From positions 1 to 36,556 of the forward strand of contig JAFCCB010000011.1 of assembly GCA_017610445.1 (NCBI GenBank): a stretch of DNA of 36,556 nucleotides. The letters are read 5' to 3'. The translations under genes were made by a program, and so were the position numbers. Positions within the stretch are counted from its first letter, which is position 1. Every line of letters starts with the position of its first letter. Positions 1 through 26,317 of the stretch are shown piece by piece. The notes beneath the pieces were generated by a model, which saw only the letters and a program-made list of their open reading frames with translations, did no database searches and was not told the origin of the DNA. This DNA comes from Candidatus Dojkabacteria bacterium. Its GTDB lineage: Archaea > Nanobdellota > Nanobdellia > Pacearchaeales > GW2011-AR1.

Positions 1-157
1 TTGTGATAATCCCAGATATTTCATTTATTTAAAAAACATTAAGATTATAAAAAAGTTACCAAAGTAACCTTTTAAGGATATATAACCCAATAAAGGTTAA
101 TAGCCAGAGTGTTAAACTCAATAAAGAAATCGGCTAAATATAGAAAGGGTTTGGGTT

Positions 158-526
158 TTAACTCCTAAAAACAATCCCATGTCCTTGATACTCAACAGAA
201 TTATCTTCTTTTACTAAATATTCTAATTCAGCTCCACCACCAGACAACGTTGCAACATCTTTGAAACTTAGTTTTGCAGAATCTGGTTGAGGTCTTTCAA
301 AATTACATATTGTAAATATTCCATACCTTTGCCCAGCAGAATACATTTCAAATAATTCTTCTAATGGTAAATCTGTTTTTATATCTTCTGGAACATAAGC
401 ACCCATGGGTCTTTTGTCTCTGTTGGCTTTCAAATCTACTAATACATTTCTAAATACTGTTTCATTTACCTTTGCAACTGGTAGATAATCTTGAACAGGT
501 ATCATTTTATATTTAGAAAGAGACAA
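158..526 (-). CDS. Hypothetical protein in a cassette-like unit; the real start is probably the internal ATG (MIPVQDYL...), since the listed start is TTG
   Basis: Intact ORF. TATA-like TTTATAAA (minus strand) lies about 20-25 nt upstream of the internal ATG, which fits a leaderless transcript. Confidence 0.6.
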   Translation of the reverse strand: MSLSKYKMIPVQDYLPVAKVNETVFRNVLVDLKANRDKRPMGAYVPEDIKTDLPLEELFEMYSAGQRYGIFTICNFERPQPDSAKLSFKDVATLSGGGAELEYLVKEDNSVEYQGHGIVFRS

Positions 527-699
527 CCTTTATAAATCCTTCGTTTTGTTACTACTTATTAATTAATAATATGACAACCCAAACCCTTGATTCTCTTAAC
601 TAAAGGGGCTTCGCCCTTGATACACCGATTTTTTTACTTTGAATTTTTCCTTCGCTTAGCTACGGAACGTTGCACTAAAATTCAATCCCTATCGGGGGA

Positions 700-790
700 G
701 TTTAACAGGAATTTAACGGTTCCGAAACCTTGCAGGCTCCACCCAAATTCCTCACTTCGTTCGGAACTTCTCTTAATCGCGATGTTATTC
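700..790. repeat. attC-like imperfect palindrome, site 1
   Basis: GTTTAACAGGAATTTAACGGTTCCGAA ... TTCGGAACTTCTCTTAATCGCGATGTTATTC; outer TAAC/GTTA plus internal complementary GTTCCGAA/TTCGGAAC. Confidence 0.55.
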
Positions 791-867
791 GCAATTCAAA
801 AAATATTTTTCTAACAGAGAATAAGGAATGATAGTCTTTCATTTTTTAAAGGATAAAGCCAAGATCA

Positions 868-1449
868 TTATTTGTGATTACTTTTCTTCCTATCTCTCCA
901 AAAAAACTTATTAACTATTTTTTTATCAATCCAAAAATGTTTATTTGCTTTGTTAATCAAATCGACAGAAGTTAAATCTTTGAAAGCATAAACATTAACT
1001 TCTTTCTTTTCTTGTTTAACATAATTTACTAATTGGGTAAAATCGCCGTCTCCAGAAATTAAAATCGCTTTGTCATATTTGTCTTTACAGGCATCTCTTA
1101 ACATATCTAAAGATAAATGAATATCATCGCCTTTTATTATATAATATTCTTTCTCATCGGCATCAACTCTCTTTTGTCTTTTGCATAAAACAACCTTGCA
1201 CTTTGGAATTTTTCTTAAACGAGCAAAAAGCCCCATTTGATTCCAATAGACATATTTGTTATAATTCTCTTTTAAGGGAGCATTGTAGTAATAAATTGTA
1301 ACTAATTTATTTTCTTTAGTAATTTCCTTAACAAACTTCTCAAAATCAAAGAAAACATCTGAATATCTTTGATTTATTGTTTTCAAACCATAATAAAAAT
1401 TTGCACCATCAATATAAACAGAAACTCTTTTCAAATTCTCTTTTTTCAT
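868..1449 (-). CDS. NYN domain (LabA/DUF88-like) putative ribonuclease
   Basis: RVSVYIDGANFYYGL ... KGDDIHLSLDMLRDACKDKYDKAILISGDGDFTQLVNYVKQ: acidic motifs and SGDGDF typical of NYN/LabA-like proteins. Confidence 0.85.
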   Translation of the reverse strand: MKKENLKRVSVYIDGANFYYGLKTINQRYSDVFFDFEKFVKEITKENKLVTIYYYNAPLKENYNKYVYWNQMGLFARLRKIPKCKVVLCKRQKRVDADEKEYYIIKGDDIHLSLDMLRDACKDKYDKAILISGDGDFTQLVNYVKQEKKEVNVYAFKDLTSVDLINKANKHFWIDKKIVNKFFWRDRKKSNHK

Positions 1450-1851
1450 TTTAAATAAAATCCGGCCTTGGCAGAGCCCAGAACCGGGGATACATAAGCG
1501 GGATGTCCGAAGACTTAAGGCACTCCCTGATACCTTAACATATTGGATTAAAGCAGTTATATAAAACTTTCGGAAGGCAGAATTTTTCCCAATCCAAAAA
1601 AGATTATTTCATCTTCTTTCTTATAAAGAAAGAAGCAAAAAAGGGCGCGCACCTCAAATTTAATGGGATGGCTCTTTGCTCGCGACCCGCTCTTTCTGAT
1701 TAATAAAAGGTTACTGAAAGAGCAAATCGCTCGACCCACCTGAACTAAGAGAGATTTTAGAAATATTAAGACGGAGAATTAGAAACTTGCTTCGTTTCAC
1801 TCCGCATCTCACCTTGCAGGCTTTCAGAAAATCAAAGATTTTTTTCAGGTC

Positions 1852-1975
1852 GCTGAACAGGGCTTAAACAGAAAATCCTTGCAGGATTTTCCCAAATTTT
1901 TTCTTTCAGAAAAAAACTCATGAGGTTATTTCATTCCGCTCAAGCCCTTAGGGTTGTTTAATGCCGATGTTAATT
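1852..1975. repeat. attC-like imperfect palindrome, site 2
   Basis: GCTGAACAGGGCTTAAACAG ... GTTTAATGCCGATGTTAATT; left arm shares AACAGGGCTTAAA with sites 3 and 5. Confidence 0.5.
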
Positions 1976-2071
1976 GCAATTTTAGGTGCTTATTTATATC
2001 CCACCCAAAGACGCGCTTTTTTAACTGAACAACACAAATCTTTTTATAGTTAAATTCATCTCTTTTTTAAA

Positions 2072-2620
2072 ATGGCAAAGAAAGTTGCAATTCCCAAAAA
2101 ATCAAAGGGTGGTGGATTAGTTGCATCCCATTGGAAACAAAACCCTGTTGTTGATTCAACAAAAGGAAAATTTACAGCAGTTTCTTTAATTCCCTATCAC
2201 CACACAACAGGTTTGATTATGCGTTCTTCTGGAAAACCAAAGCTTGTAGGTTATTGTGTGGAATCTCCTAGAGATGTTTTGGAAACTGCTTTTGAAAATT
2301 ATCATGTTACCCACTACAATGGTTATGAATTATTCAGTAGTGGAGATTTTGAATCAACAACCCCTATGCTAGGATTGGGAATTACTCCAGTCGAGCCTCC
2401 AAAGGTTTATGGAATTGAATATAATGGAAGATTAGAAAACCTTTTACAGCTCGATGAATTACTAAAAGCAAAAAGAGATGAACCAATTTCTCATCAAGAT
2501 GTCCAAAGAATCCTTGCTTATCTCAATAAAGAATCTGATATGGGATTTATGAATCCAAATAATAATCAATACAAACACGATAAGAAAGAAATTGTGGATA
2601 TAGTAAAAAGATTTGGATAA
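2072..2620 (+). CDS. Hypothetical protein in a cassette-like unit (the only plus-strand one in the 5' array)
   Basis: Intact 182-aa ORF with ATG start; AT-rich TATA-like element upstream. Confidence 0.65.
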   Translation: MAKKVAIPKKSKGGGLVASHWKQNPVVDSTKGKFTAVSLIPYHHTTGLIMRSSGKPKLVGYCVESPRDVLETAFENYHVTHYNGYELFSSGDFESTTPMLGLGITPVEPPKVYGIEYNGRLENLLQLDELLKAKRDEPISHQDVQRILAYLNKESDMGFMNPNNNQYKHDKKEIVDIVKRFG

Positions 2621-2724
2621 CGCACGTCTTTTCTCACTCTAATTTACTGCACCTAAAACTCAAAATCTCTTTGAGATTTTGCCACGCCTTGCAGGCTCTC
2701 ACTCCATTTCATTCCGCTCCCACA

Positions 2725-2866
2725 ACTTAACAGGGCTTAAAGGGTTTCGTTCGGTTGCACCTCACTACACCCAAATTCAATTTCAGCTCTGAAAAAATTC
2801 TCAGCTCTGTTTCACGAGGAGAATTTTTTCGAGGAAATTGAACTTCCCTTAAGCCCGATGTTATGT
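2725..2866. repeat. attC-like imperfect palindrome, site 3 (clearest example)
   Basis: ACTTAACAGGGCTTAAAGGG ... CCCTTAAGCCCGATGTTATGT: GGGCTTAA-(A)-GGG pairs with CCC-TTAAGCCC, leaving one bulged A and an asymmetric spacer before TAAC/GTTA. Confidence 0.65.
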
Positions 2867-2906
2867 CTAATTCAGAATTCGGGCGAAAAGATAGAAACCG
2901 AAAGAT

Positions 2907-3176
2907 TTACTCTTCTTTTGGTGTTAATACTTGATACGAATCAAAATGTTTAAGGTCATATTCTCTTGATTTGTCAAAAACTTTTGTTGGTCCTTCCCCA
3001 AATATTGTTAATCTTTTTGTAAATTGTTCATTTTTCTTAGATGGTTTTTCTGTGCATAATTCTACCCTATGTGGAGCATAATTTTTGACATATCCTACTG
3101 CAGAATACCCTTGGCTACTTTCAAGTAAAAGAATATCTCCAACACATACTCCTTCAAGTTTATCTATTAATGACAT
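2907..3176 (-). CDS. Hypothetical small protein in a cassette-like unit with its own promoter
   Basis: Minus-strand upstream: TTTATAAAATATTGATTAATACTAAAATTAAGGAGAATCAAAATG (TATA box plus SD-like AAGGAG). Confidence 0.65.
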   Translation of the reverse strand: MSLIDKLEGVCVGDILLLESSQGYSAVGYVKNYAPHRVELCTEKPSKKNEQFTKRLTIFGEGPTKVFDKSREYDLKHFDSYQVLTPKEE

Positions 3177-3329
3177 TTTGATTCTCCTTAATTTTAGTAT
3201 TAATCAATATTTTATAAATCTTTCGGTTCTTTTACCACTTTGAGGTTAATATTGATAACGCCCGAATTCTGAACTCAAAATCCTTCAGATTTTGCCCCGC
3301 TGCACTCTCCTCCTTTCAGTCGTCGGGAG

Positions 3330-3448
3330 ACATAACAGAAATTTAACGGAAAATTGCTCGGCTCGCAATTTTCCCAAATTTGATTTTCCAGCTCTGTTCA
3401 CTCCGTTCACGAGGGAAAATCAAACTTCGGTTAATCCTGATGTAAAAA
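3330..3448. repeat. attC-like palindrome, site 4 (degenerate right core)
   Basis: ACATAACAGAAATTTAACGG ... TTCGGTTAATCCTGATGTAAAA; left arm resembles site 1, right GTTA is altered to GTAA. Confidence 0.4.
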
Positions 3449-3502
3449 AATCGGTTAGATATAGAAAGGGCTGGCTCTTAAAAATTCATGAAACCGAAAG
3501 AT

Positions 3503-3814
3503 TTATTCGCTTGGTCGTTCAAGACAATATTTTCTGAAAATTTCTGCTTTGCTAATTTCTGTTTCGTTGTCTCCAGCACGATTATTTATTAATACCTCAT
3601 CAAGAGTTTTTGTATATGCACTGCAACCAGTTCTTTCAACTCTTTCTAGTCTTTGTGGAAGCTGTTGTATTCCTTGATTTCCATATTCTTGTCTATAAAA
3701 TTCCTTAAATTCATCTAAGGACATTCCATAGGTTGTAGGTGCGTCAACTACTGTAGACCACTTTAAGTAGAAATCTTTTCCTTCACCACTCATCTTGATT
3801 ATGTATTTTGGCAT
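3503..3814 (-). CDS. Hypothetical small protein in a cassette-like unit with its own promoter
   Basis: Minus-strand upstream: AAAGATTTATAAAATGGTGGGTTATACTATAATCAAGGAGATTTAAAATG, similar to the promoter of ORF 2907..3176. Confidence 0.65.
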   Translation of the reverse strand: MPKYIIKMSGEGKDFYLKWSTVVDAPTTYGMSLDEFKEFYRQEYGNQGIQQLPQRLERVERTGCSAYTKTLDEVLINNRAGDNETEISKAEIFRKYCLERPSE

Positions 3815-4019
3815 TTTAAATCTCCTTGATTATAGTATAACCCACCATTTTATAAATCTTTTGGTAATTTACTACTATTAAATTACTATCAATTATGAGC
3901 CGACCCTTTATTTTTTTAACTAATGGTGCTTCGCACTTTATACGCCGATTTTTTTACTTTGATTTTTTTGCCTTCGGCATCGTTGCGCTAAAAATCAATC
4001 CCTCCAAGTATTCCGGAGA

Positions 4020-4094
4020 AACTAACAGGGCTTAAAGGGTTCGCTCGTTGCACTTCGCTACACCTAAAACTTCTCTTAATCGCAAATGTTAGTT
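4020..4094. repeat. attC-like imperfect palindrome, site 5
   Basis: AACTAACAGGGCTTAAAGGGTTCGC ... CTTCTCTTAATCGCAAATGTTAGTT. Confidence 0.55.
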
Positions 4095-4199
4095 TCAATT
4101 GAGTTTAAGTTTTTAAGACGGGCACGCGCTTAGTCTTTCAGACAATTTGTCAAAATTTTTAGTTTTGAAATTTTATTTAGAAATAATCTTTTTATTTTT

Positions 4200-4508
4200 T
4201 TACTTTTTTGAAGCTTGAACAATAGAATTAATAGTTTTTGTTGTTTCTTCTCCGCCCATTGTATCAACAAGAGATTTTCTTTGAGGACTCAAATCTAATT
4301 CTTTTACTTGTCCCATTAATTTGTTTCCTGCTATTAATGCATCCTTTCTAGAATCATAAACTGGATCGCAGGAAATTATTGGACGACAATATTTATCTTC
4401 ATTATGAGTAATGGCATAACCATATTTTCTAGATTTATTATGTCGATAAGTATCAACAAAAGTTTCATTTCCTTGAATTTGCAATGCTGATAATAAAGAC
4501 AATCCCAT
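4200..4508 (-). CDS. Hypothetical small protein in a cassette-like unit
   Basis: Intact 102-aa ORF between repeat elements. Confidence 0.55.
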   Translation of the reverse strand: MGLSLLSALQIQGNETFVDTYRHNKSRKYGYAITHNEDKYCRPIISCDPVYDSRKDALIAGNKLMGQVKELDLSPQRKSLVDTMGGEETTKTINSIVQASKK

Positions 4509-4572
4509 AGCATAATATATTTTGATTATGTTTAAAAGGATTTGTATGATAAAAAGATTATTTCATCTTCTT

Positions 4573-4624
4573 TTTTAGAAAAAAAGAAGCAAAAAACTCT
4601 AGGCAATCCTTCCAATTTTATGGT
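4573..4624. repeat. Direct repeat copy 1 flanking the PIN/antitoxin module
   Basis: TTTTAGAAAAAAAGAAGCAAAAAA ... GGCAATC...TCCAATTTTATGGT; the same 24-mer recurs exactly at 5359-5382. Confidence 0.8.
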
Positions 4625-4639
4625 CGTCGGCTCAACCAA

Positions 4640-5044
4640 TTAAATAATTTTTATTAACTCACTTGTAGAATAAATTTTAACATTCTCTTGTCCTTTAAGT
4701 TTTTTATCATTACTCCAAATAGGACAATTTTGTTTTAATGCCAATGCAATATATTCTGTATCATCTAGATCTGGAGTTACTTCTTCTGCTTTTTTTATAA
4801 ATCCCTCAAATTCTTGTTTTTCAATAAAATTAATCCTTGCCGAAATTAGTGAAAGAAAAAGATCTAGCTCTTCTTCTGTTAAACCTGATTTTTCTACAAT
4901 TTCATCTTTATGTTCTTCAAATTCTTCTAAAAGATATTCTGGAGCAAATAGTTTAAGATCTTCTCTAAAAATCAAATCATATGTAAATCCATTTGTTAAA
5001 ACTAAAGCAGACATTAATATATTCGCATCAATAATTAATTCCAT
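4640..5044 (-). CDS. PIN-domain toxin (VapC-like); ORF track start 5083, preferred start ATG at 5044 (MELIIDANILMSALV)
   Basis: N-terminal ELIIDANILMSAL, internal LDDTEYIALALKQNCPIWSNDKKL typical of PIN domains; begins one nt after the antitoxin stop. Confidence 0.85.
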   Translation of the reverse strand: MELIIDANILMSALVLTNGFTYDLIFREDLKLFAPEYLLEEFEEHKDEIVEKSGLTEEELDLFLSLISARINFIEKQEFEGFIKKAEEVTPDLDDTEYIALALKQNCPIWSNDKKLKGQENVKIYSTSELIKII

Positions 5045-5045
5045 T

Positions 5046-5273
5046 TTAATTAGATTTTTTATATCTTTCATGTAATGATGCATTAATCTTTCTTCCTAAT
5101 TCTAATGCATCTTTTTCACTAAGTTTGGATTTTGCAGTTATTGCCTTTAGAATTCTAAGCTGAGCTACTTTGGTTTTTATTGCTTCTCTTGCAACTGCTG
5201 ACCAGTTTATCTCTCTAGAATCTTCCATGTCTTTTTTTATATCTTCTGGAACTGATAAGGTTATTGTGGGCAT
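5046..5273 (-). CDS. VapB-like antitoxin (ribbon-helix-helix-type N-terminus)
   Basis: MPTITLSVPEDIKKDMEDSREINWSAVAREAIKTKV, immediately upstream of the PIN gene. Confidence 0.75.
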   Translation of the reverse strand: MPTITLSVPEDIKKDMEDSREINWSAVAREAIKTKVAQLRILKAITAKSKLSEKDALELGRKINASLHERYKKSN

Positions 5274-5358
5274 GTTTATATCCTCCTATTTAATTATGTG
5301 TAAATATTTAATGTATTTAATATATATAAATGTTTTGCTTGAACTCCTCCCACTTCTG

Positions 5359-5410
5359 TTTTAGAAAAAAAGAAGCAAAAAAGGCAGGCAATCTCTCCAA
5401 TTTTATGGTT
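5359..5410. repeat. Direct repeat copy 2 flanking the PIN/antitoxin module
   Basis: TTTTAGAAAAAAAGAAGCAAAAAAGGCAGGCAATCTCTCCAATTTTATGGTTGG. Confidence 0.8.
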
Positions 5411-5467
5411 GGAGCTTCCACCTCCTCCCCCGCCCAAGAGAATTTTAGAACTCAAGCCTTTGCGGTC

Positions 5468-5542
5468 GGATAACAGCGATTAAAACACTCGCCCTACTCA
5501 TCCTAATTCTTTGAGAACTAGTTTTAATTGCAAACGTTAAAC
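5468..5542. repeat. attC-like imperfect palindrome, site 6, at the 3' end of the pilus operon
   Basis: GGATAACAGCGATTAAAACACTCGC ... TTTTAATTGCAAACGTTAAAC; core GTTAAAC fits GTTRRRY; 6 nt from the stop codon of ORF 5549..6436. Confidence 0.6.
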
Positions 5543-8190: not shown

Positions 8191-11100
8191 CTAATTTTCA
8201 AAAACAGATCCAGAACCAGATTCTTCATCAATACCAAATGCCTTTAAAACACCTTCAGGATTTTTATAATATTCATTAACGATTTTCTGGATTTGATTAA
8301 AATCATAAATCCTTCTCTTTTGCAGTTCATATAATAATTTAGCTCTTAAATAAAATTCTTTATTTAATTCTTCTGCTCCCAAACCATATTTTCTTGAAAT
8401 TTTCTCAAAAACTTTGCTGTCTTTTTTAAAATAAAAAATATTATCCCCCACATTCCAGATAAAAGGGGTATTTGTCAATGCAATTCCTTTAGTATCTACA
8501 TTTATAATTTCAACAATCTCTCTTAATCTTCTTGTTTGTTGCTTGTTAATAGTGGCATGAGTCATTATTGCAACACAATCCAAAACATTAAGAAGTGTCG
8601 GGGATAATTCTATTGGAGGAGTTTCCAATCTTTTAATAAGAGTATCCACAGAATCTGCATGCATTGTGCTGATAGAAGAATGTCCTGAAGCCATCCCCTG
8701 GAATAATACAAATGCTTCTTTGCCTCTCACCTCTCCAACAATTACATAATCTGGATTTTGTCTGAAAGAATTTTTTAGCAGACTAAATAAATCAACCTCT
8801 CCGGTTTTTCCAGCACCTAATGAAGTTCTTGAAACACTTGGTAGCCAGTTTTCACGGGGCAGATTAATCTCGCGCGTGTTATGGACGAAAATATTATCAC
8901 ACATAAATTTTTCATATTTTGGAATACTTAAATCAAAAACTTCAATGTCCCTGCATTTAATTTTTTTAATACTTTTTACTTTATCCCAATAAATATCATT
9001 ATGAGATAAATCATTATACTTAGAACCAGGAATAGCAATTTTTTGAAGGTAATTTCTACCCATGTTTTGCATATCTTGCAAATAAGGCCAGCTTAATTTA
9101 TGATGATTATCATTAATTTCTTTTAATTGATTAATTGATAATGGGATGATATCACTAAATGTATGGGAAGATTTTTTATTGTAGGCATATAGTTTTTCAT
9201 TTTTTCTGTCCTGCAAAAATCCAACTTCTTTAAATTTTTCAATATTTTCAGAACTTGAAATAGACATATTAATGCATTTATCTTTTCTATTAAAATCATT
9301 AATTCTTGAAATTATACCTAATCTTAAAAATAAGGTTTGAAAATCTTCAAGTAGAGTATAGCTTTGGGAAGCACAAGAAATCTCATTTTTTTTCATAGTT
9401 CCATCTGCACTAAAATAACCTCTAATAAAATGTTTAATTTGTTCATTAGATAGATTAAAAATAAAATCAGGGATTTTTTTAGTATTAGAATAGCCATCAA
9501 ATTTCAAAACATTTTTCATGAACTTGTAAAATATAGTGCTATGTATCCTCATAGAAACACCATTATCATTCATTATTGAATGATTTGTTTGCAAATAATC
9601 TGTAATTTTTCTAAATTTTTCTCTGCATTCTAAATCTTGATTGGATATTATCACAGAATTTTGATTATAATTGTCATAACTCCCATCCCCAATCCATAAC
9701 CCACAAAACTCTAAAAAATTTTTATCTATTCTAAATAAAACAGGAATAGAGGATTTATTTTTACTTTTGATTTTTAAATTTTTTAAGTCTTCAACAGTAA
9801 ACTCAAAGTTAATTTTCATAAAATCAGAAATTTTTATTATATTTCTTTTTTTCCACCATCTATATTTTTCTTTTTTAATATTAAAATCTTTTAATTTACA
9901 TTTCTCAAAAATCTTTTTTATTGGTTCTCCAACCAAAAAATCCTTTTCAAAACATTTTAGATAATTAATTAAATTGATTTCATTTATCCCTTCACCATTA
10001 ATAGGTAATCTTCTTGGAACTGCAATAAATGATTTTCCTTGTTTTAATTGCATTGGTTTAATCTCTGCTAATCTGCCATCACACATACTAAATAAGGAAT
10101 GATCTTCAGTAACTTTAATTTTCCTTCCAGTGGAGGTTAAAATTTCATAAATATCTTTTGAAACTTTATGTTTAATATATGAACTGGGTTTAATAAAAAT
10201 AATTTTTCCAGATTCATCAAGAGTCATAACTTCTGCATCAATTTTATTATCTACGAATTCTTTAATAGTAATATTTCTAATTTTTTTATTTTGTTTTATA
10301 ATTATCCTTGAATCTCCAGTTACACTATCTTCAATACTTACAACTCTTGCTTCAGGAGGAATAAAAAAAGCAATAGCATTAAGAAGTGTAGTTTTTCCAG
10401 AAGCAGTCCCGCCAGAAATCAGAATATTTGCTTTGTATTGAAGCAAAATCCAGAAATAAGCAAGCATTTCAGGGCTTAATGTTTTCATATTTAACAGCTG
10501 AACAGGAGTCCATGGAACTTTTGTAAATTTCCTGATTGTAAAAGTAGGTCCTCTGCTTGTAACATCTTTTGTATAAGTTGCATTAACTCTGCTCCCATCA
10601 GGAAGACTGCCGTCTAAAAGAGGTGAAGCATAAGAAATGTATTTTCCACATCTCTGTGCAAGTTTCTCAACAAAATTTGACAATTTATCCACAGATTTAA
10701 ACACTAAATTTGTTTTTATATTTCTGTAAATTCTGTGAATAATATAAATAGGAGTATTAACCCCGTTGCATTCAATATCTTCAATAAAAAAATCCCGCAT
10801 CAAAGCCTCAATCTTATTTAAACCTACAAAATCCCTGAACAAATAATAAAAAATCTTTTTGTAAGATTCCTCGCTTATTTTCAAATCCAGCTCCTCAATC
10901 AAAAGCCGCGATGTTTTATTTATATAGTCTATCATTGACTCTTTTGTTTTGTCAACCAAAATATTCACATTAATCATCTCACCCAAACTTAATTCAAGAG
11001 TATCCAGCAATGATTTTTCATTCTGATTTAAAATCGGCTCTTCAATTTCATAAATTAATTCATTTATTTTCCTGTCCCAATAAATATGAACACTAGTGTA

Positions 11101-11199
11101 AGGTGCAATAAGAACATATCTAAGATTAATCTTTGTTTTGTCTTCTATTTTCGGAAGCACAGGCATTCTTGGATTTAAATTTATTTCTATTTTATCCAT
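8191..11199 (-). CDS. Archaeal type II/IV secretion (pilus) ATPase, TadA/FlaI/GspE superfamily, interrupted by an intein
   Basis: Walker A GGTASGKTT, VVSIED|TREINLP split by intein, RQNPDYVIVGEVRGKEAFVLFQGMASGHSSISTMHAD. Confidence 0.95.
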   Translation of the reverse strand: MDKIEINLNPRMPVLPKIEDKTKINLRYVLIAPYTSVHIYWDRKINELIYEIEEPILNQNEKSLLDTLELSLGEMINVNILVDKTKESMIDYINKTSRLLIEELDLKISEESYKKIFYYLFRDFVGLNKIEALMRDFFIEDIECNGVNTPIYIIHRIYRNIKTNLVFKSVDKLSNFVEKLAQRCGKYISYASPLLDGSLPDGSRVNATYTKDVTSRGPTFTIRKFTKVPWTPVQLLNMKTLSPEMLAYFWILLQYKANILISGGTASGKTTLLNAIAFFIPPEARVVSIEDSVTGDSRIIIKQNKKIRNITIKEFVDNKIDAEVMTLDESGKIIFIKPSSYIKHKVSKDIYEILTSTGRKIKVTEDHSLFSMCDGRLAEIKPMQLKQGKSFIAVPRRLPINGEGINEINLINYLKCFEKDFLVGEPIKKIFEKCKLKDFNIKKEKYRWWKKRNIIKISDFMKINFEFTVEDLKNLKIKSKNKSSIPVLFRIDKNFLEFCGLWIGDGSYDNYNQNSVIISNQDLECREKFRKITDYLQTNHSIMNDNGVSMRIHSTIFYKFMKNVLKFDGYSNTKKIPDFIFNLSNEQIKHFIRGYFSADGTMKKNEISCASQSYTLLEDFQTLFLRLGIISRINDFNRKDKCINMSISSSENIEKFKEVGFLQDRKNEKLYAYNKKSSHTFSDIIPLSINQLKEINDNHHKLSWPYLQDMQNMGRNYLQKIAIPGSKYNDLSHNDIYWDKVKSIKKIKCRDIEVFDLSIPKYEKFMCDNIFVHNTREINLPRENWLPSVSRTSLGAGKTGEVDLFSLLKNSFRQNPDYVIVGEVRGKEAFVLFQGMASGHSSISTMHADSVDTLIKRLETPPIELSPTLLNVLDCVAIMTHATINKQQTRRLREIVEIINVDTKGIALTNTPFIWNVGDNIFYFKKDSKVFEKISRKYGLGAEELNKEFYLRAKLLYELQKRRIYDFNQIQKIVNEYYKNPEGVLKAFGIDEESGSGSVFEN
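8878..10326 (-). other. Intein with LAGLIDADG homing endonuclease domain, 483 aa, inserted between SIED and TREI of the ATPase
   Basis: N-terminus SVTGDSRI, block B-like KVTEDHSLFS, two dodecapeptides FCGLWIGDGS and FIRGYFSADGT, C-terminus CDNIFVHN followed by +1 Thr; boundaries in frame (codons 292-774). Confidence 0.93.
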
Positions 11200-26242: not shown

Positions 26243-26317
26243 GTTTAACAGCGATTAAAGAGTTCTATTACATTCCACCCAAATCTTTCAGACTTTTTTT
26301 ACCTGCAAACGTTAACC
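26243..26317. repeat. attC-like imperfect palindrome, site 8, abutting the helicase stop codon
   Basis: GTTTAACAGCGATTAAAGAGTTC ... CCTGCAAACGTTAACC; AACAGCGATTAAA and GCAAACGTTAA shared with site 6. Confidence 0.6.

Follow-up and report, generated by a model that had tools for sequence, protein, structure and literature searches.

A putative integron-like gene-cassette platform with a XerA-type recombinase at its head in a Pacearchaeales genome

The window analyzed here, a stretch of 36,556 nucleotides (nt) from an archaeon deposited as Candidatus Dojkabacteria bacterium and assigned to the Pacearchaeales in GTDB, is the entire contig JAFCCB010000011.1 (C38 below; base 1 is the contig end) of an 833-kb assembly (GCA_017610445.1) with a completeness of about 89%. 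From the contig end inwards, the window contains the start of a recombinase gene on the minus strand, an attI-like site, and six small cassettes, each of which ends in a site on the plus strand that is predicted to fold (Table 1). Among the cassette products, one has a NYN domain and another resembles PIN_2 toxins and is paired with a small protein; further products have no Pfam match. Taken together, these features make it very probable that a chromosomal, integron-like platform of gene cassettes has its head in this region.

Table 1. Predicted elements of the cassette platform in the window and their coordinates (ORF, open reading frame; aa, amino acids)
Feature	Position	Strand	Remarks
Recombinase start, 8 codons MKYLGLSQ	1..24	-	Gene runs off the contig end; aligned to the G079 recombinase start MKYQGLLKKLEEN
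attI-like primary site	56..119	+	Inverted repeat GGATATATAACC...GGTTAATAGCC, then junction GTTAAACTC at 111-119
Cassette 1	112..784	+	ORF 158-526, minus strand, 122 aa, no Pfam match; boundary boxes pair 9/9
Cassette site S1	700..790	+	63.2 bits, E 2.5e-9 (improved model R2, whole genome)
Cassette 2	785..1969	+	ORF 868-1449 (-), NYN-domain nuclease-like, PF01936, E 7e-25; boundary boxes unpaired
Cassette site S2, left box GAAC	1852..1975	+	60.1 bits, E 1.1e-8 (improved model)
Cassette 3	1970..2860	+	ORF 2072-2620 (+), 182 aa, no Pfam match; boundary boxes inexact
Cassette site S3	2725..2866	+	57.9 bits, E 3e-8 (improved model)
Cassette 4	2861..3442	+	ORF 2907-3176 (-), 89 aa; boxes GTTATGTCT / AGACATAAC pair 9/9
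Cassette site S4, right box decayed (GTAAAAA)	3330..3448	+	39.1 bits, E 2.8e-4 (improved model)
Cassette 5	3443..4088	+	ORF 3503-3814 (-), 103 aa
Cassette site S5	4020..4094	+	42.4 bits, E 6e-5 (improved model)
Cassette 6	4089..5536	+	ORF 4200-4508 and the pair 5046-5273 + 4640-5083 (75-aa protein and PIN_2 toxin-like protein, PF10130, E 1e-27), all minus strand; boundary boxes unpaired
Cassette site S6, last of the array	5468..5542	+	40.2 bits, E 1.7e-4; pilus-assembly (T2SSF) gene directly after
Solitary site of the same family	26243..26317	+	34.5 bits, E 0.003 (improved model)

The original prediction, which read this region as an integron-type gene-cassette array, named six intergenic sites; all six are present at the positions it gave, and each is recovered by a covariance model. 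The first model was trained on 18 sites, of which only those at 700, 4020 and 5468 come from the window, the rest being short-loop copies that were found by pattern search in other genomes and then aligned; the short-loop subset was chosen because a MAFFT alignment of sites of all lengths predicted no pairs, an artefact of the long loops. In a search of the whole 833-kb genome, this model recovers the three window sites that it had not seen, at 1852 (E 2e-5), 2725 (E 2e-5) and 3330 (E 0.017), and it has just three hits beyond the array, at C3:27488, C3:27007 and C38:26243. A renewed search with an improved model (R2), rebuilt from 122 copies, identifies nine sites genome-wide, namely the six in the array, the solitary one at C38:26243, and two more at C3:27488 and C3:27007, with all sites within one contig sharing one orientation. 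When the improved model was run on 377 sampled genomes of the phylum, the family was found in 122. Its consensus is TAACAGCGATTAAGAGG-(hairpin, often with a CTTGCAGG loop)-CCCAAATT-(hairpin)-AACTTCTCTTAATCGCGATGTTA. The shared TAAC...GTTA layout that had been proposed for all six sites holds in general but fails at the left box of the site at 1852 and at the right box of that at 3330. Their orientation, which the prediction had left undecided, can be settled: all of them read R''-L''-L'-R' on the plus strand, with a short left spacer of 5-6 nt and a right spacer of 7-8 nt. The stem pairs covary, with 241 cells among 122 sites changed on both sides, compared to 90±7 after shuffling and 30-52 when the partner is slid.

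If the cassettes are DNA circles that are cut at GTT, the box outside TAAC must pair with the bases that follow the GTTA of the previous site, that is, with the start of its own cassette. Over 3 nt, such complementarity is exact in 33 of 62 neighboring pairs, compared to 2 of 61 when the next site is used and 16 of 91 within the same site (10,000 shuffles: mean 6.4, maximum 16). In a replicate set of 20 loci picked by site score alone, 43 of 56 pairs match over 3 nt and 35 of 56 over 5 nt, and the corresponding next-site controls are 7/54 and 0/54; the Vibrio chromosomal integron, fetched as a control, displays matching complementarity in its two directly adjacent cassettes. In the window, the boxes are exact (9/9) at attI/S1 and S3/S4 and inexact in cassettes 2, 3, 5 and 6; the lack of pairing in cassette 6 makes it possible that a site has been lost inside it. 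The same logic extends to the attI-like site. At position 111, the junction GTTAAACTC is complementary in all 9 nt to GAGTTTAAC, the outer box of S1 at 698-706. Of the 21 testable loci, 15 have a perfect 9-mer complement to the outer box of their first site no more than 260 nt from the recombinase start (0 of 408 when the 9-mers of other loci are used). The region upstream of the window recombinase start aligns with its equivalents in L110, L114, L115, L132 and L174, and across the array loci the attI-like junction usually lies beside an inverted repeat. Thus, boundary complementarity and the attI-like site, along with the single orientation of arrays and the recombinase at their head described below, strongly support the proposed cassette array.

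The 149 cassettes delineated in these arrays have a median length of about 1.05 kb and mostly encompass one ORF each, with 131 ORFs pointing in the direction of the site and 101 in the opposite direction. Entire cassettes are common to different genera (e.g., those in L126 and L110 are 87% identical over 915 nt), and in other cases the cassette ends are common while the gene differs, as in cassette 4 of the window and a counterpart in the genome G371 (L165), which belongs to a different family. An element of 46 nt, containing the inverted repeat CTTCTTTCTTATAAAGAAAGAAG, lies in the window at 1597-1642, 4551-4596 and 5337-5382, where it precedes three cassette genes on the minus strand by about 40-150 nt, and it recurs with 90-96% identity in cassettes of other genomes; it may be a promoter or operator that the cassettes share. 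The genome to which the window belongs (G000) also has a second array, small and with just two sites (contig C3:27007-27572, L131), whose boundary boxes GTTAAAC / GTTTAAC pair exactly. Some 20 relatives have no array within about 1.4 kb of the equivalent pilus locus, and the position of the array is therefore not conserved. Elsewhere in the pilus region of the window, a 1002-aa ATPase-like ORF (8191-11199, minus strand) contains an apparent intein-like insertion in the middle of the protein, as judged from the translation alone.

Folding energies distinguish the two strands of these sites. The minus strand gives the more stable fold in 218 of 236 family sites and the less stable one in 16 (flank control, 122 vs 91); in the minus-strand fold, the stem is closed end to end in 206 of the 236, and 198 of those 206 have at least two inner hairpins. 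The central spacer is asymmetric, the right arm being longer by 2-3 nt in 101 of 103 well-paired sites, and the stem itself is continuous, given that a bulge raises pairing by at least 3 in just 3 of 165 sites. Hence the comparison with attC sites bearing an extrahelical base, drawn in the original prediction, is not supported for the family, the recombinases of which also lack the IntI-specific domain, and the bulged A at 2725 that it had read as attC-like is not typical. These results bear on the possibility that the sites of the same platform recombine as double-stranded core sites, in the manner of dif modules, with the fold arising as a by-product of the inverted boxes. XerA acts on double-stranded dif, the enzymes of the arrays are XerA-like, and the attI-like site resembles an inverted-repeat core site. 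Nevertheless, the strong covariation along the whole stem, the bottom-strand bias, the end-to-end closure with inner hairpins and the pairing across the circular junction are difficult to explain under this scenario, which appears unlikely.

The array had been described as lacking an integrase. The window, however, carries the first eight codons of a recombinase gene (24-1, minus strand), and the arrays of its relatives do have a recombinase. MKYLGLSQ in the window corresponds to MKYQGLL in the recombinase of G079, and both are located 86-87 nt from the aligned attI junction, so the contig starts inside the recombinase gene, the remainder of which is not in the assembly. A tyrosine recombinase is present in 12 of the 20 replicate loci, in each case to the left of the array and on the strand opposite to it; six of the other eight have an array that reaches the left contig end or comes within about 150 nt of it. 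A survey from the recombinase side, with genes drawn from a collection of 85,462 species, gives the same picture: of the 71 sites around recombinase genes, 68 are upstream on the opposite strand, one is upstream on the same strand, and two are downstream, even though more downstream than upstream sequence was searched. At least one site is present in 28 of the 35 recombinase loci that have enough upstream sequence. Of 66 recombinase loci (L172-L237), 31 are cut within 2 kb upstream, and contig ends are frequent at or inside arrays, so that the assemblies of these genomes probably miss part of their cassettes.

In the phylogenetic tree, the array-linked enzymes fall mostly into two clades, A and B (support 98/95 and 98/91), apart from IntI (100/99) and from the XerA of the class. 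Sites are present in 17 of the 19 genomes with a clade-A recombinase; named bearers of this clade are mainly Candidatus Pacearchaeota, together with Aenigmatarchaeota, Nanohalarchaeota, Parvarchaeum and one Altiarchaeales record. The catalytic residues R-K-H-R-H-Y of the array-linked recombinases are almost always intact, and the distance from KDR to HxxR is 57-64 aa in all 34 of those compared versus 103-104 aa in three IntI proteins, such that the IntI-specific domain of about 40 aa is missing; it is presumably absent from the window's own recombinase as well. The best-matching family for seven of the eight recombinases tested, including the genome's own XerA, is NCBIfam NF040815 (archaeal XerA), the cut-off of which is passed by L110, L115, L112, L127, L120 and L001 and not by L117 and L118. 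The fold predicted for an array recombinase (mean predicted local distance difference test score 84.5) has XerA (5hxy) and IntI4 (2a3v) as its top fold-search matches. The recombinase encoded on contig C11 of the same genome was considered as the enzyme of the array and ruled out: it belongs to the housekeeping XerA clade, and the stretch fetched around its gene contains no site. Another member of that clade, L122 (G045:C3), adjoins one site and is arranged relative to it as the array recombinases are to theirs. A third recombinase clade (L116, L121, L157) is mostly located away from arrays, with some members beside sites. In Flavobacterium genomes with weak relatives of these recombinases, no sites were found.

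The composition of these enzymes is also pertinent to the view that the window holds an ordinary integron, or a cluster of attC sites lacking integrases (CALIN), like those already published for archaea, in which the attC sites would be canonical and the IntI either lost or left unassembled. Integrons, mostly CALINs, are known in Nanoarchaeota (PMC9668308), and the layout, attI and cassette logic are alike. Nothing above the cut-off of the IntI profile TIGR02249 was detected in the genome or in 139 relatives, where only sub-threshold, Xer-like matches were obtained; in addition, the IntI domain is missing from the recombinases that head the arrays, the sites have no extrahelical bases, and the eight codons in the window match the array recombinase family. 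Given a recombinase start at the head of the array, the locus also differs from a CALIN, which by definition has no integrase of any kind. An ordinary integron or CALIN is therefore improbable here.

Arrays have a single orientation in 53 of 53 loci of the first set and 19 of 20 of the second (72 of 73 together), unlike miniature inverted-repeat transposable elements (MITEs) and repetitive extragenic palindromic (REP) repeats, which insert independently and in either orientation. The sites are palindromes with TA at both ends, as expected of dispersed repeats with a TA target duplication, and some adjoin core genes (e.g., upstream of a rpoE-like gene in L059). Nonetheless, the consistent orientation, the boundary complementarity and the recombinase at one end only render such repeats, as well as terminators between genes, highly improbable, and for most sites the cassette-boundary test refutes both. 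A distribution as generic terminators after most operons, which the original prediction had named as counting against an array, is not observed, with only nine copies in 833 kb. A structured RNA between genes, to which the conserved stem and inner motifs might point, can practically be dismissed, since an Rfam scan of the array yields no match worth keeping, genes occur in either orientation with respect to the site, and boundary complementarity spans more than 1 kb.

Under the preferred interpretation, an integron-like platform, the enzyme would be a tyrosine recombinase of XerA type, lacking the IntI-specific domain, that binds attI in double-stranded form and the cassette site as a folded single strand, namely the bottom (minus) strand. 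Strand exchange would occur at or next to the bond between G and TTA of the GTTA box, and circular cassettes would be inserted at attI or excised. The choice of the strand would be determined by the asymmetric R/L bulge of 2-3 nt and by the better folding of the bottom strand (a three-way junction and G-T wobbles) rather than by extrahelical bases. Because cassette genes point in both directions, the cassettes probably bring their own promoters. Several considerations weigh against this scheme. Recombination itself is deduced from sequence comparison. The clade-A and clade-B recombinases may lack a common origin, and the array-linked enzymes outside both clades, together with the XerA-clade L122 beside a site, blur the rule of one enzyme. 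The directions of ORFs (131:101) are not nearly uniform as they are in classic integrons. Finally, the copy in the window may be partly decayed: only cassettes 1 and 4 have exact boundaries, GTTA is gone from S4, and no more than eight codons of the recombinase are seen.

Beyond this locus, the view cautiously favored here is that DPANN archaea possess a second integron lineage, in which a XerA-type recombinase either took on the ability to use folded single-stranded sites, without the IntI-specific domain or extrahelical bases, or kept it from before IntI, and to which many "integrase-less" archaeal arrays belong. Cassette-based gene capture may then have a second machinery, so far overlooked, that is common in these archaea. 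If so, the integron logic would require neither the IntI-specific domain nor extrahelical bases, the "integrase-less" arrays of DPANN archaea would be accounted for, the origin of integrons from Xer recombinases would become open to experiment, and organisms with very small genomes would have a route of gene exchange.

Among known systems, the platform most resembles the sedentary chromosomal integrons of bacteria, such as the Vibrio superintegron, in its divergent recombinase gene with attI alongside, head-to-tail one-gene cassettes bounded in the GTT box, R''-L''-L'-R' sites with paired boxes and an asymmetric central spacer, boundary complementarity, and a content of toxin-antitoxin and unknown genes. 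It differs in that the archaeal recombinases belong to other clades and lack the domain of about 40 aa near patch III, the L'' arm has no extrahelical bases, and genes lie in both directions; the archaeal covariance model yields no match to Vibrio sites. The attC sites are described as having an unpaired central spacer, a terminal structure that varies, and extrahelical bases, which are said to occur in every known site and to be decisive for strand choice, although in their absence the central spacer can still impose it (PMC2727003). The IntI-specific insertion, in turn, has been called essential to the functioning of integrons (PMC8138268). Sites that lack extrahelical bases fit an enzyme without the part that holds such bases, so that the two absences match. 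The likeness to archaeal XerA/dif resides in the XerA-like family (NF040815) of the recombinases, and the housekeeping XerA forms a separate clade, with high support for the great majority of array enzymes. Archaeal integrons, mostly CALINs, have already been published, including those of Nanoarchaeota and Aenigmatarchaeota, with six IntI that contain the IntI-specific domain and other arrays without an integrase (Ghaly et al. 2022, PMC9668308). Some of the arrays described here are probably among these. In the open-licence literature, no report of non-IntI integrons in archaea was found; within that scope, what is new, in contrast to the arrays of Ghaly et al., is the different, non-IntI recombinase at the head of the arrays.

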